DNA of 64,000 nucleotides from Gammaproteobacteria bacterium (GTDB taxonomy: Bacteria > Pseudomonadota > Gammaproteobacteria > Xanthomonadales > Rhodanobacteraceae). The notes under the pieces were generated by a model. That model was not told the DNA's origin and made no database searches. It worked only from the letters and a program-made list of their open reading frames with translations. A program made the position numbers and the translations under genes. Below are positions 34,834-55,582 of the stretch, one piece after another. The first letter of the stretch is position 1; each line of letters begins with the position of its first letter. The stretch is taken from NCBI GenBank assembly GCA_021325195.1, contig JAJPHQ010000035.1, positions 1 to 64,000 of the forward strand. The letters run 5' to 3'.

Positions 34834-34837
34834 AAGC

Positions 34838-42118: not shown

Positions 42119-42792
42119 TTTCGACGTCCATGTCTTTTTTCGCCCGCCTGACTCGCGCCATGCCTGGCGCTCGCCCTTCGGGCCGCCTGCGGCGTTCAAA
42201 TCGGCAATCCTGCCGATTTAGTCCGGGCGGGCGAGCCACCTTTCTTTGCGTGGCCAAAGAAAGGTGGCCCAAAGAAAGGCCACCCCGGTGCTGCGTTTTT
42301 CGCCCGTCCATGGACGAAAAATCCGTCCGGGCCGTCCGGACTCGCCGACGCGCCGTCCCTGGCGCGGCGTCAAGTGGGCGCAATCCATTGCGCCCACCCT
42401 GCGGGCCTGATCGTCCGGCCCTCACCGCAGCACAGGGGCCCCGGAAAGGCTCTGTTTCGATGACGCCTTCCTTGGCTTCGTTCAAAGCGGGAACGAGCAG
42501 TTTGCTTCGCGCCATCCTGCGCGCAGGAAGCGCGCCAGACGGGGCCCCTCGAACACGGCGAGCGAACGACGGAAAGTCCGAAGGATGGCGCACAGGAAGT
42601 GCGCCAGTTCGCCGCAGGCGCAGGGATGCGCCTTCGGCGAACCCCGGCGGCCGCTCGCGGACCCGCAGCCCATGGATGGGCTGTGGGCGTGTTCGCGGGG
42701 TGGCCTTCTCTTTGGTGACTTTCTCTTGGCCACGCAAGAGAAAGTCACACGCCTGCCCGGGAGGCGGGCGGAAAAAGACAGGGACGTCGAAA
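42119..42792. repeat. large inverted composite repeat region with many hairpins
   Basis: Left arm tttcgacgtccatgtcttttttcgcccgcct matches the reverse complement of the right end (tttcgacgtccctgtctttttccgcccgcct). Hairpins ccacctttcttt-gcgtggcc-aaagaaaggtgg (42236-42267) and gtgactttctctt-ggccacgc-aagagaaagtcac (42715-42748) have mutually complementary loops. Confidence 0.85.
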
Positions 42793-49580: not shown

Positions 49581-50630
49581 ATGATGACCTCCGTATCGAT
49601 CCGTGCTGCTCGGATACGTTCCCTCCTGCGCGTTCCGCTGTGCGGGGCGCTGATCGCCGCGGCTGCAGCGATCGTGCTTGCCGGCTGCGGCCAGAACCAG
49701 AACGCGCCGCCGAAACAGGCGCCTGCCTCCGCACCCGCCGCGAAACCGCCGGTTGCCTCGGCACCGGCGGCCAGCGCACCGCCCGCCTCGGCAGCGCCGG
49801 CGCCGGCCTCGACCGCCGCGCAGGCCCAGGCAGCGCAGGCCAGACTGCAGTCTATGAGCGTGGACCAGTTGCTGGCCGCGGCCCGCGACGCGGTGAACCA
49901 GCAGCGGCTGGTCGCGCCCGCCTCGGACAACGCCTTCGAATACTACGAGGCTGCCCTGCAGAAGGATCCCAACAACCAGGTGGCCAGGGACGCGCTGCGC
50001 GAAACCTTCCCGTTCGGCGCCACCCAGGTCGAACGCACCATCTCGCAGAACAATTTCGACGAGGCCGACCGCGAGATCGGCCTGCTGGCCAAGGCCGATC
50101 CCACCAATTACACGTTGACCATCCTGCGCTCCAAGCTGGACGCGCAGCGCAAGCTGCAGCAGCGTCAGCAACAGCAGCAGGCGCAGAAGGAGGCCGAGCT
50201 TGCCGCCAAACAGGCTGCCGCCGCCAAGGCGGCGGCAGAGCAGGCTGCGGCGGCCAGGGCCGAAGCCGAACGTGCCGCTGCCGCGAAGGCCGCGCCGCCT
50301 CCCCCGCCGGTCGTGCGGACGCCCAAGCCCGCGCCGCCTCCGCCGTCCGCCGGTGAAACACGCGTGGCCGAGGTGATCCAGGCCGCCGCACCCAGTTATC
50401 CGATCGAGGCAGCGCGCAACCAGACCTCGGGCTACGCCGTGGTCGAGTTCACCGTCGAGCCGGATGGCTCGGTGAGCGATGCACACATCGTGGACTCCTC
50501 GCCGCGCCGGGTGTTCGACAACGCCGCGATCCAGGCGGTCAAGCGCTCGAGGTTCAAGCCGGCGCTGAAGGACGGCAAGCCCGTCTCCAGCGTCCTGCGC
50601 CGCCGGATCGATTTCAGGTTCGGGGGGTGA
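49581..50630 (+). CDS. lipoprotein with C-terminal TonB domain (TonB-like energy transducer)
   Basis: Lipobox IVLAGCGQ; KQQQQ/A-rich linker, PPPPP; C-terminal GYAVVEFTVEPDGSVSDAHIVDSSPRRVFDNAAIQAVKRSRFKPAL. Confidence 0.85.
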   Translation: MMTSVSIRAARIRSLLRVPLCGALIAAAAAIVLAGCGQNQNAPPKQAPASAPAAKPPVASAPAASAPPASAAPAPASTAAQAQAAQARLQSMSVDQLLAAARDAVNQQRLVAPASDNAFEYYEAALQKDPNNQVARDALRETFPFGATQVERTISQNNFDEADREIGLLAKADPTNYTLTILRSKLDAQRKLQQRQQQQQAQKEAELAAKQAAAAKAAAEQAAAARAEAERAAAAKAAPPPPPVVRTPKPAPPPPSAGETRVAEVIQAAAPSYPIEAARNQTSGYAVVEFTVEPDGSVSDAHIVDSSPRRVFDNAAIQAVKRSRFKPALKDGKPVSSVLRRRIDFRFGG

Positions 50631-50633
50631 GTC

Positions 50634-50808
50634 GCAGCGTTTACGCGATGCGTTGAATCGCATCGCGTGCTGCGACGAACGCCCGAAGCAGGATGCTGAG
50701 GGCCGGAGTTGCTTGGCGAGATCAGGATGATCGAGCCTGGCAACAGGGTCCATTTTTCGAAGGATGGGATGGCCGCCCGGGCGCCAAGCTCCAGGGATGG
50801 CTGCTTGC
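50634..50808. repeat. copy A of a duplicated hairpin-containing intergenic element
   Basis: cgcgatgcg-ttgaat-cgcatcgcg perfect stem (50644-50667) flanked by gtcgcagc/gctgcgac; about 120 bp downstream nearly identical to copy B. Confidence 0.88.
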
Positions 50809-50821
50809 TTGAACTTTTTCA

Positions 50822-51066
50822 GCAGCGTTTACGCGATGCGTTGACTGCGCGCGCCGGGAACGCGCGCGAACGGCGGAGCCGGCCTGCAAGGCGAGCGCCA
50901 AGGAAGGCGCGAGTCATCGCATCGCGTGCTGCGACGAACGCCCGAAGCAGGATGCGGAGGGCCGGAGTTGCTTGGCGAGATCAGGATGATCGAGCCTGGC
51001 AACCGGGTCCATTTTTCGAAGAATGGGATGGCCGCCCGGGCGCCAAGTACCGGTGATGGTTGCTTG
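50822..51066. repeat. copy B of the duplicated element, carrying a 71-bp insertion in the hairpin loop
   Basis: Same flanks as copy A; insertion 50845-50915 between ttga and atcgcatcgcg. Confidence 0.88.
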
Positions 51067-51272
51067 CGCCTGGATGCTTCACCGCGCCGGCTGCCTGCAG
51101 GGTAGCTACAGTCCTTAGGCCAACCACGCCGTGGTCGCACGGCGAATCACGACCGGGCCGGCGTCACGCGCCACGAAAGGCTTGCGGCAAGCATCGACAC
51201 GGCGCTGCACGGTTCGCGGCATGCGAAACAGCACGCGCCGCACCGGCTCGGGCGCCGGAAGCAAGCCAGACC

Positions 51273-53225: not shown

Positions 53226-55214
53226 ATGGATTTCTTCGCCCAGCAGGCGCGGGTCCGGCGTTCGAGCCGCACCCTGGTGCTGCTGTTCGCGCTGGCGGTG
53301 CTGGCGATCGTGGTCGCGGTCGATCTGGTCTGCGCGTTCGTGCTGGGCGTGGGCCTGCGCGCGGCACCGTTGCTGGCGATCGCGCTCGCGGTGGTCATCG
53401 TGATCGCGCTGTGTTCGGCCTACCGCATCGCCAGCCTCGCCGGGGGCGGCGCCGCGGTGGCGCGCAGCATGAACGCGAGCGAGGTGCCGGCCGATACCGC
53501 CAACCCGCAATGGAAGCGCCTGCGCAACGTGATCGAGGAAGTCGCGATCGCGTCGGGCGTGCCGGTGCCGGAAATCTACGTGATGCAGGACGAGCCCGGC
53601 ATCAACGCGTTCGCGGCCGGCTACACGCCCACCGACGCCGCGGTGTGCGTGACCCAAGGCTGCCTGGACAAGCTCAACCGCGACGAATTGCAGGGCGTGA
53701 TCGCCCACGAGTTCAGCCACGTGCTGAATGGCGACATGCGGCTGAACATCCGGCTGATCGGGCTGTTGTTCGGGATCATGGCGATCGGCGTGATCGGGCG
53801 GTTCCTGCTCTACAGCGGCAGCGGCCGCAGCAGCCGGCGCGACGGCGGCAACGTCGCGCTGGCCGGCCTCGCGCTGTTCATCGTCGGATCGATCGGCCTG
53901 TTTTTCGGCAAGCTGATCCAGGCCGCGGTGGCGCGCTCGCGCGAATCGCTGGCCGACGCGTCGGCGGTGCAGTTCACCCGCCAGACCTCAGGCATCGCCG
54001 GCGCGCTCAAGAAGATCGCCGCGTTCGCCGAAGGCTCGGCGTTGCAGGCATCCGGACGTGACGAGGTGCGGCACATGCTGTTCGGCGACGCCGAGCGCGG
54101 CTCGCTGTTCGCGACCCATCCGCCGATCCTGGAGCGCATCAGGGCGCTGGAACCCGGGTTCGACCCCAGCGAGCTGGACGCGATCGTGAAGCAGTGGCTT
54201 GCCTCGGGCGGCAGGCCCGAGTCGATCGAGCTGCACGCCGAACCGCACGACTGGGAAAAGGCCGTGCACGATTTCGCGGTGGCCGACGGCGATGTCGGCG
54301 AGCCGCTGCCGGGCTTTCCGCCGTCGTCGCAGGCCGCGCAGGCAGCGCCGGCAGCGTCCGGCGCCGTTCCTCCTCGGGCAGCAGCGCTGGCAATCACCGC
54401 CGCCGGGGTCGCGGCGCAGGTGGCCTCGCCCGGCACCGACGACTACCGTGCCGCCGCGCAACTGCGCGCGCGCGTTCCCGATGCGCTGGCCGCGGCCGCG
54501 CGCGATCCACGTGGCGCGCTGGCGGTGATTTTCGCGCTGGCGGTTTCCGAACATCCGGATCTGCAGACGCAGCAGCTGGAAACGGTCGCGCAGGCGTTCG
54601 ATGCTTCGATGGCCGATGCCGTGCGCAACCTGCTCGCGGACGTGGCGGCGCTGCATCCGATGCTGCGGCTGCCGCTGGCGCAACTGGCGTTTCCGGCATT
54701 GAAGCGCCGTCCACGCCCCGAACTCGACCGTTTCACGGCTGCGCTGGACAAGCTGATCCACGCCGACGGACGCGTCGATCTGGACGAATACTGCCTGGCC
54801 AAGCTGGTGCAGGTGCAGGTGATCGCGGCGCTGGATCCGTCCGCGCATTTCAAGCCGGGCAATCTGCGCCTGACCGAGGCACAGGCTTCCCTGCGCGACC
54901 TGTGCGCGCTGATGGCGCATTTCGGCAACGACGACGCCGACACCGCGCGCCGCGCGTTCCAGGCGGCGATGCAGGAGGCGCTGCCGGGCGCGGGCGTGAT
55001 GTACGCGATCCCCGAAGACTGGCAGGGCGCATTGGACGCGGCGCTGGCGGAACTTGCGCGGCTCTCGCCCGAGGGCAAGCAGCTCACCGTGCGCGCGCTG
55101 ACCCGCGCGATCGCCGCCGACGGGGTCGTGAACGTGGCCGAATCGGAGTTGCTGCGCGTGGTGTGTGCGGTGCTGGGTTGTCCCCTGCCGCCCATCCTTG
55201 GCGATCATCCATGA
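53226..55214 (+). CDS. M48 family metallopeptidase (HtpX-like) with a C-terminal TerB-like extension
   Basis: GVIAHEFSHVLNGDMRLN zinc motif; follows LemA; C-terminal LDKLIHADGRVDLDEYCLAKL. Confidence 0.9.
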   Translation: MDFFAQQARVRRSSRTLVLLFALAVLAIVVAVDLVCAFVLGVGLRAAPLLAIALAVVIVIALCSAYRIASLAGGGAAVARSMNASEVPADTANPQWKRLRNVIEEVAIASGVPVPEIYVMQDEPGINAFAAGYTPTDAAVCVTQGCLDKLNRDELQGVIAHEFSHVLNGDMRLNIRLIGLLFGIMAIGVIGRFLLYSGSGRSSRRDGGNVALAGLALFIVGSIGLFFGKLIQAAVARSRESLADASAVQFTRQTSGIAGALKKIAAFAEGSALQASGRDEVRHMLFGDAERGSLFATHPPILERIRALEPGFDPSELDAIVKQWLASGGRPESIELHAEPHDWEKAVHDFAVADGDVGEPLPGFPPSSQAAQAAPAASGAVPPRAAALAITAAGVAAQVASPGTDDYRAAAQLRARVPDALAAAARDPRGALAVIFALAVSEHPDLQTQQLETVAQAFDASMADAVRNLLADVAALHPMLRLPLAQLAFPALKRRPRPELDRFTAALDKLIHADGRVDLDEYCLAKLVQVQVIAALDPSAHFKPGNLRLTEAQASLRDLCALMAHFGNDDADTARRAFQAAMQEALPGAGVMYAIPEDWQGALDAALAELARLSPEGKQLTVRALTRAIAADGVVNVAESELLRVVCAVLGCPLPPILGDHP

Positions 55215-55230
55215 TCGCTGGCTTGTCACT

Positions 55231-55551
55231 GCGATCGTCCATGAACGCTGCCCGCAGCCAGGATTTCGTGACGCCGTGCGATTTGCCTTGCTCTTGCCGA
55301 GCGAAGTGGACATCCCTGTCCGCATTTGTCGAAAGATGCGATCGTCCATGATCGCTGCCAGCAGCCACGATTTCGTGACCTTGTGCGTTTTACGTTGCTC
55401 TTGCCAAGCGAAGCGGACATCCCTGTCCGCATTTGTCGAAAAGATGCGATCGTCCATGATCGCTGCCAGCAGCCAGGATTTCGTGACGCCGTACGATTTG
55501 CCTTGCTCTTGCCGAGCGAAGCGGACATCCCTGTCCGCATTTTTCGAAGAG
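55231..55551. repeat. three tandem copies of a ~108-bp repeat
   Basis: Copies begin gcgatcgtccatga at 55231, 55338 and 55446; each contains a gcgatc...gatcgc hairpin and copies 2-3 a gcggaca-tccc-tgtccgc hairpin (copy 1 has one mismatch). A partial copy precedes at ~55201. Confidence 0.92.
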
Positions 55552-55582
55552 CTCTCACCCATTCTTCATCGAGCGTGACGGG

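Follow-up and report, generated by a model that had tools for sequence, protein, structure and literature searches.

A repeated four-hairpin unit in the loop of a duplicated intergenic hairpin suggests a mini-element with a preference for loops

In the window, i.e. the whole analysed stretch of 64,000 nucleotides, a segment of 71 bp that folds into four hairpins opens the loop of one of two tandem copies of an intergenic hairpin element. We found that this unit is repeated, that its structure covaries between copies and that empty sites match filled sites, with a recurring insertion point and a constant orientation. As relatives of the unit are dispersed across the genome and the order and are repeatedly found in loops, its behaviour is that of a very small mobile element, and we consider it very likely that it is mobile. 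The 71-bp segment is probably a non-autonomous mini-element of the REPIN/MITE type (termed C-unit here) that inserts at (G/C)A^A, where the caret marks the insertion point, and that is favoured in loops.

The two copies of the host element (A-element A, 50632-50812, and A-element B, 50822-51067) lie in tandem between a gene with a TonB_C domain, which ends at 50630, and a convergent gene of the beta-lactamase family. The features of this locus and the second unit of the window are as follows.

50632..50676, + strand: hairpin of copy A with the empty loop TTGAAT, directly after the stop codon of the TonB_C gene (50628-50630) (fold)
50677..50812, + strand: remainder of A-element copy A with further weak hairpins (conserved in the dispersed copies L003-L010)
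50822..50844, + strand: left arm of the copy B host hairpin, ending in TTGA (A/B alignment)
50845..50915, + strand: inserted 71-bp four-hairpin unit; with the flanking GA, its closing stem is GACT (50843-50846) / AGTC (50912-50915)
50847..50867, + strand: hairpin H1 of the unit, highly variable in sequence between copies, with covariation in 8 of 9 pairs (alignment, fold)
50871..50881, + strand: hairpin H2 (alignment, fold)
50882..50892, + strand: hairpin H3 (alignment, fold)
50895..50910, + strand: hairpin H4 (alignment, fold)
50916..50935, + strand: right arm of the copy B host hairpin, starting with AT (A/B alignment)
50936..51067, + strand: remainder of A-element copy B (A/B alignment)
42149..42223, - strand: second four-hairpin unit of the window, capping a GCCCGCC/GGCGGGC hairpin

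Realignment returned the coordinates that the earlier note had given for the duplicated hairpin and its insertion. The segment 50822-50844 is a second copy of 50634-50656 (100% identity) and 50916-51067 is a second copy of 50657-50808 (95% identity over 152 bp), in agreement with the near-identity over more than 120 bp described before. The sole large difference is 71 bp present in copy B, and the alignment places this insertion uniquely, TTGA^[CT...GAGTC]^AT at 50845-50915, against the empty form TTGA^AT in copy A, which confirms that exactly 71 bp open the loop. The hairpin of copy A, TCGCAGC-GTTT-ACGCGATGCG-TTGAAT-CGCATCGCGT-GCTGCGA, is predicted to fold as DNA with -21 kcal/mol (z -5.5), and the filled hairpin of copy B is predicted to form a single stem capped by a five-way junction (-45 kcal/mol, z -4.9). 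The A/B repeat is not due to chance, because the 20-mer GAACGCCCGAAGCAGGATGC is present at two places in the window compared to none in shuffled sequences and because both parts are multi-copy in the genome. Judged by the 95% identity between the copies, copy B may be recent, as had been proposed. A role of the copy A hairpin as an intrinsic terminator was rejected, as no T-run follows the hairpin and the one weak terminator-like match, at 50994, is at shuffle level. Further downstream, a minus-strand ORF (window 53988-55562) contains a repeated peptide stretch (NADRDVRFA.QEQ...VTKSWLLAAIMDDRIF), which suggests another tandem repeat.

Copies of the unit are about 70-100 bp long and consist of four hairpins and a GACT/AGTC closing stem, with no evident coding capacity. 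In the aligned copies, 94.3% of the cells are paired compared to 25-40% in slid controls, and double changes are found in 13 of 27 base pairs, eight of them in H1. The head at both unit ends is GACT and not GTAG or CGTC. The inserted ends had been described as imperfect inverted repeats, gactgcgcgc/gcgcgagtc. This applies to GACT/AGTC (TGACT/AGTCA with the flanks), whereas the GC-rich parts form the separate hairpins H1 and H4, between which two further hairpins lie. Covariance models from Rfam gave no hit at gathering score in the window and none above threshold over the unit in 20 loci.

BLAST detected 28 matches to the 71-bp unit in this genome, and a covariance model of the unit detected 74 (E<=1e-3; flanks inspected for 73 of the 74), so that the inverted hairpin doublet GACT-H1 ... 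H4-GAGTC is dispersed and repeated and the unit is not unique. It is present in all 16 genomes of the genus and, in the order-wide search, in 59 of 151 genomes and 36 of 65 genera. The A-element has 17 matches in this genome; the dispersed A hairpins mostly have an empty loop, commonly TTGAAT, on varying stems. The nearest relatives of the copy B unit are found in other contexts or species (92% identity in G012, 89% on contig C85 of this genome), and its closest relatives occur in G012, G015 and G003. Although this genome is a draft of 118 contigs, the pattern repeats in independent genomes, some of them single-contig. Plasmid and phage collections contained no match to the unit. One match was found on a viral contig (L250, 40 kb), next to a terminator hairpin and tandem units and not far from a phage-type integrase gene; as this is probably host DNA flanking a prophage and the phage and plasmid collections gave no match, carriage by phages or plasmids was rejected.

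Empty and filled forms of the same site recur. At least five filled A-type hairpins in this genome carry the unit at one loop position (copy B, C52:31046, C99:4560, C30:29328 and C34:12101). A second tandem pair of an empty and a filled hairpin (L155, C30:29028-29699, positions 180-212 and 287-386) has a stem different from that in the window, GCGCGATGCA TTGA^AG TGCATCGCGC. In the congener G015, a tandem array of four A-type elements, of which two are empty and two are filled, lies downstream of the orthologous TonB_C gene (L191, GCGACATGCC), and in G023, which belongs to a different genus, a filled A-type hairpin has yet another stem. For other hosts, empty sites were recovered by a script that joined both unit flanks and searched them in the loci at hand. 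Besides A hairpins, it returned GGCGCGA^AGCGCC (GGTGGCGCGA^AGCGCCGGATGAGGG), where the flanks on C110 are 96% identical to a window copy near 34834, GCCCGCCCGGA^AGGCGGGC in another host repeat, GCCGA^ATTCGG in a further host, a tRNA-Ser T-loop, and GCGGGA^ATCC in a repeat similar to dRS3 and CGTC-REPs; CGTCATTCCCGCGAAAGCGGGAATCCA-type repeats of this kind are present in this genome among the hosts of the unit. All mapped empty sites are (G/C)A^A, the orientation of the unit relative to the site is constant, and no target-site duplication was found in the empty/filled pairs. As the unit occurs in several unrelated hosts with matching empty sites, we conclude that insertion rather than deletion explains the difference. 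A unique 71-bp unit and an origin of copy A by simple deletion, the outcome that the earlier note had set against its own reading, is ruled out by the dispersed copies and the recurring pairs.

In other genera, the unit is often found in a tRNA 3' copy adjoining the intact gene, where it opens the T-loop, GGTTCGA[unit]ATCC. In nine tRNA or tmRNA cases, the locus also contains the gene in intact form or a further empty copy, and usually it is the intact gene nearby that represents the empty site of the duplicated copy. For instance, the 3' end of a tmRNA gene (L246, 958-1704) is repeated in tandem downstream of the gene, and these copies carry the unit in their T-loop (TTCA^AT). In this genome, three tandem tRNA-Ser(gga) units are found next to the SRP RNA (L164, C15:11302-12173), of which the first two are interrupted in the T-loop by a four-hairpin unit and the third is intact. 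Similar cases with less clean junctions involve a D-loop-like site (L237), the D/anticodon region (L245) and a half-tRNA-Arg that ends at the anticodon loop (L230:1117).

Hairpin loops are enriched among the sites. Stems of at least 7 bp right around the unit were found for 10 of 103 copies compared to 0.9% in a null of mismatched flanks, and stems of at least 6 bp for 15 of 103 compared to 3.1%, where the null ignores the kinship of the host repeats. Most copies, however, are not at a hairpin apex; non-loop sites include REP arms, GGGACTC heptamer arrays and a hairpin-base junction (GCTGCGCCGA^ACGCCC in G004). As loops are enriched but most copies lie elsewhere and (G/C)A^A is common to all, structure is a preference at most and (G/C)A^A is the common factor of the sites. 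Loops are also common among the available targets, because the host families are themselves hairpin-rich. Of the structure-targeting behaviour that had been suggested, insertion instead of deletion, the reuse of the same loop position in different stems and the use of several unrelated hairpin loops including tRNA and tmRNA T-loops stand, whereas structure alone is not the target, as many copies lie outside loops, and no known structure-targeting transposase was found in the genome.

This last result comes from domain searches of a 99.85%-complete draft, from which low-copy, divergent or unassembled enzymes could escape. They gave no match in this genome to Y1_Tnp/RAYT (PF01797), to the IS110-type Transposase_20 or to the reverse transcriptase domain RVT_1, which are present in 7, 5 and 3 of the 16 genus genomes, respectively. 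Y1_Tnp is also absent from 8 of the 15 other congeners, including G012, G015 and G003. With these genes absent by domain search, RAYT/IS200, IS110 and retroelement mobilisers encoded in this genome were rejected. Nor did the sequences analysed show an autonomous parent, a transposition intermediate or a polymorphism within one species, which speaks against the reading as a mobile mini-element.

For the window, the A-element would have been duplicated in tandem before the C-unit entered copy B. Insertion would be precise, in one orientation and without target duplication at (G/C)A^A, GA^AT being the commonest form, and would occur above chance at hairpin apices, namely the TTGAAT loop of the A hairpin, tRNA and tmRNA T-loops and the loops of two other repeat families. 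The unit might be moved in trans by an enzyme whose substrate is DNA in single-stranded or extruded form, following an HUH-type logic as in REPINs and IS200/IS605. By analogy to REPINs (PMC3116915), such a single-strand mechanism with mobilisation in trans is conceivable, though we hold it with some doubt. Still more tentatively, folded mini-elements across the order may enter single-stranded loops at (G/C)A^A through a loop-directed strand-transfer activity that has so far escaped recognition, with duplicated hairpins, tRNAs and tmRNAs as landing pads and with modules nesting in unit loops.

Nesting itself is observed. A second short and unrelated module around CCCGGACTTGATCCGGG has 18 matches, about 8 of which are in the H1 loop or in that of a CGCCGC/GCGGCG hairpin; it is nested in loops at C91, C102, C97 and C43 (L204, L205, L217, L218; also L203 and L207). 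A third module, CCGCGCAGCGG, is found in the H3 loop of two unit copies.

Could the motif explain the sites without any role of structure? Insertion into double-stranded DNA that is purely specific for the sequence (G/C)A^A(T), hitting loops since the host repeats and T-loops carry GAA(T) there, would be consistent with the motif at every mapped empty site and with the many sites outside loops. We regard it as unlikely: the copies cluster in repeats, loops and copies of RNA genes, although GAA(T) abounds in every genome; the unrelated loops (A, GGCGC and GCCCGCC hairpins, T-loops) share little beyond the motif and complementary flanks; and stems around the units exceed the null. Site-specific recombination by an Xer-type tyrosine recombinase with a housekeeping role, for which the stem arms would be core-binding arms and the loop of 6-7 nt the crossover region, seems improbable to us. 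Host families differ entirely in the sequence of these arms, the two junctions do not both contain the overlap, and REP-arm and heptamer sites have no such arms. The loop size, the symmetrical arms and the use of tRNA and tmRNA T-loops would fit this account. In tRNA genes, T-loops and anticodon loops are frequent sites of integrases. Xer proteins are, to our knowledge, near-universal, and the absence of a dedicated transposase would therefore be explained, in line with the lack of any Y1/RAYT, IS110 or RT mobiliser in the searches.

Alternatively, host hairpin and unit could have spread as a composite, with the A/B difference arising by gene conversion with a filled copy or by precise loss from A. 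Composites do duplicate, as is seen from tandem filled copies (G015 #3 and #4, tRNA-Ser in L164, several copies in L244). There is little probability in this account for the window, given that both stem and unit differ between filled hairpins, that the copy B unit is nearest to units elsewhere (G012, C85) and that dispersed A hairpins commonly have an empty TTGAA loop. It is also improbable that the insertions are host-driven accidents, in which a hairpin nuclease cleaves loops in replication and the strand of a nearby hairpin is captured or copied by template switching without a transposase. The insertion point and both ends of the unit vary by hardly a base, which would not be expected from random capture, although the occurrence of the unrelated CCCGGACTTGATCCGGG module in loops at about 8 of 18 places would fit. 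We keep these four accounts as rivals to the favoured reading of a non-autonomous mini-element that inserts at (G/C)A^A with a preference for loops.

Base-exact empty/filled pairs from several species are hereby available for a loop-preferring mini-element, with tRNA and tmRNA T-loops as repeated targets. For palindromic repeats that lack a dedicated transposase (CGTC-REPs, mosaic repeats), the mode of spread becomes directly testable, and the nesting of hairpins in hairpins shows how mosaic intergenic repeats can arise.

Among known systems, IS200/IS605-derived mini-elements of the PATE type have no target duplication, a short one-sided target and subterminal hairpins. The unit shares these three properties but occurs in a genome without Y1_Tnp, and the use of loops is not described for those elements in the literature searched. 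It differs from a classical MITE by the lack of target-site duplications in the empty/filled pairs. REPs and REPINs are small non-coding, palindromic and mostly intergenic elements associated with RAYT transposases (PMC3116915; PMC3733652). Like these, the unit has at either end a hairpin preceded by a short head tetranucleotide, the two ends being inverted relative to each other, and forms tandem clusters including the flanks. It differs in the head (GACT compared to GTAG or CGTC), in its four hairpins with a hugely variable yet covarying H1, in the target (G/C)A^A, in the T-loops of tRNA and tmRNA copies and in a host genome without Y1_Tnp. CGTC REPs, too, have no dedicated transposase (PMC3733652). 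Repeat mosaics are found both here and in the intergenic regions with CGTC-REPs or Neisseria dRS3 (PMC3733652); however, the CGTC-type REP is here the interrupted target and not the unit, which lacks the CGTC-ATTCCC...GGGAAT stem and is unrelated in sequence to dRS3. Arrays of the heptamers GGGACTC/GGGAATC, which regularly flank a subgroup of the units (C54, C38, C10, C25 and C33), resemble the G-rich repeats of PMC4692102. Mitochondrial repetitive or double-hairpin elements (PMC2800124) are similar as hairpin elements between genes and within RNA genes, but they are organellar and usually have one to three hairpins, and no shared fixed target is known for them from that paper. In the open-licence literature, no direct description of bacterial repeats inserted in loops or T-loops was found beyond PMC3733652, where some REP dimers are described inside palindromes; for instance, GTAG-23 of T. 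roseum lies within CCGSSCC(n3,4)GGSSCGG, a palindrome that also occurs empty in hundreds of places. Palindromic repeats inside palindromes are thus already known, and it is the head motif, the four-hairpin build, the target and the use of tRNA and tmRNA loops that set the unit apart.
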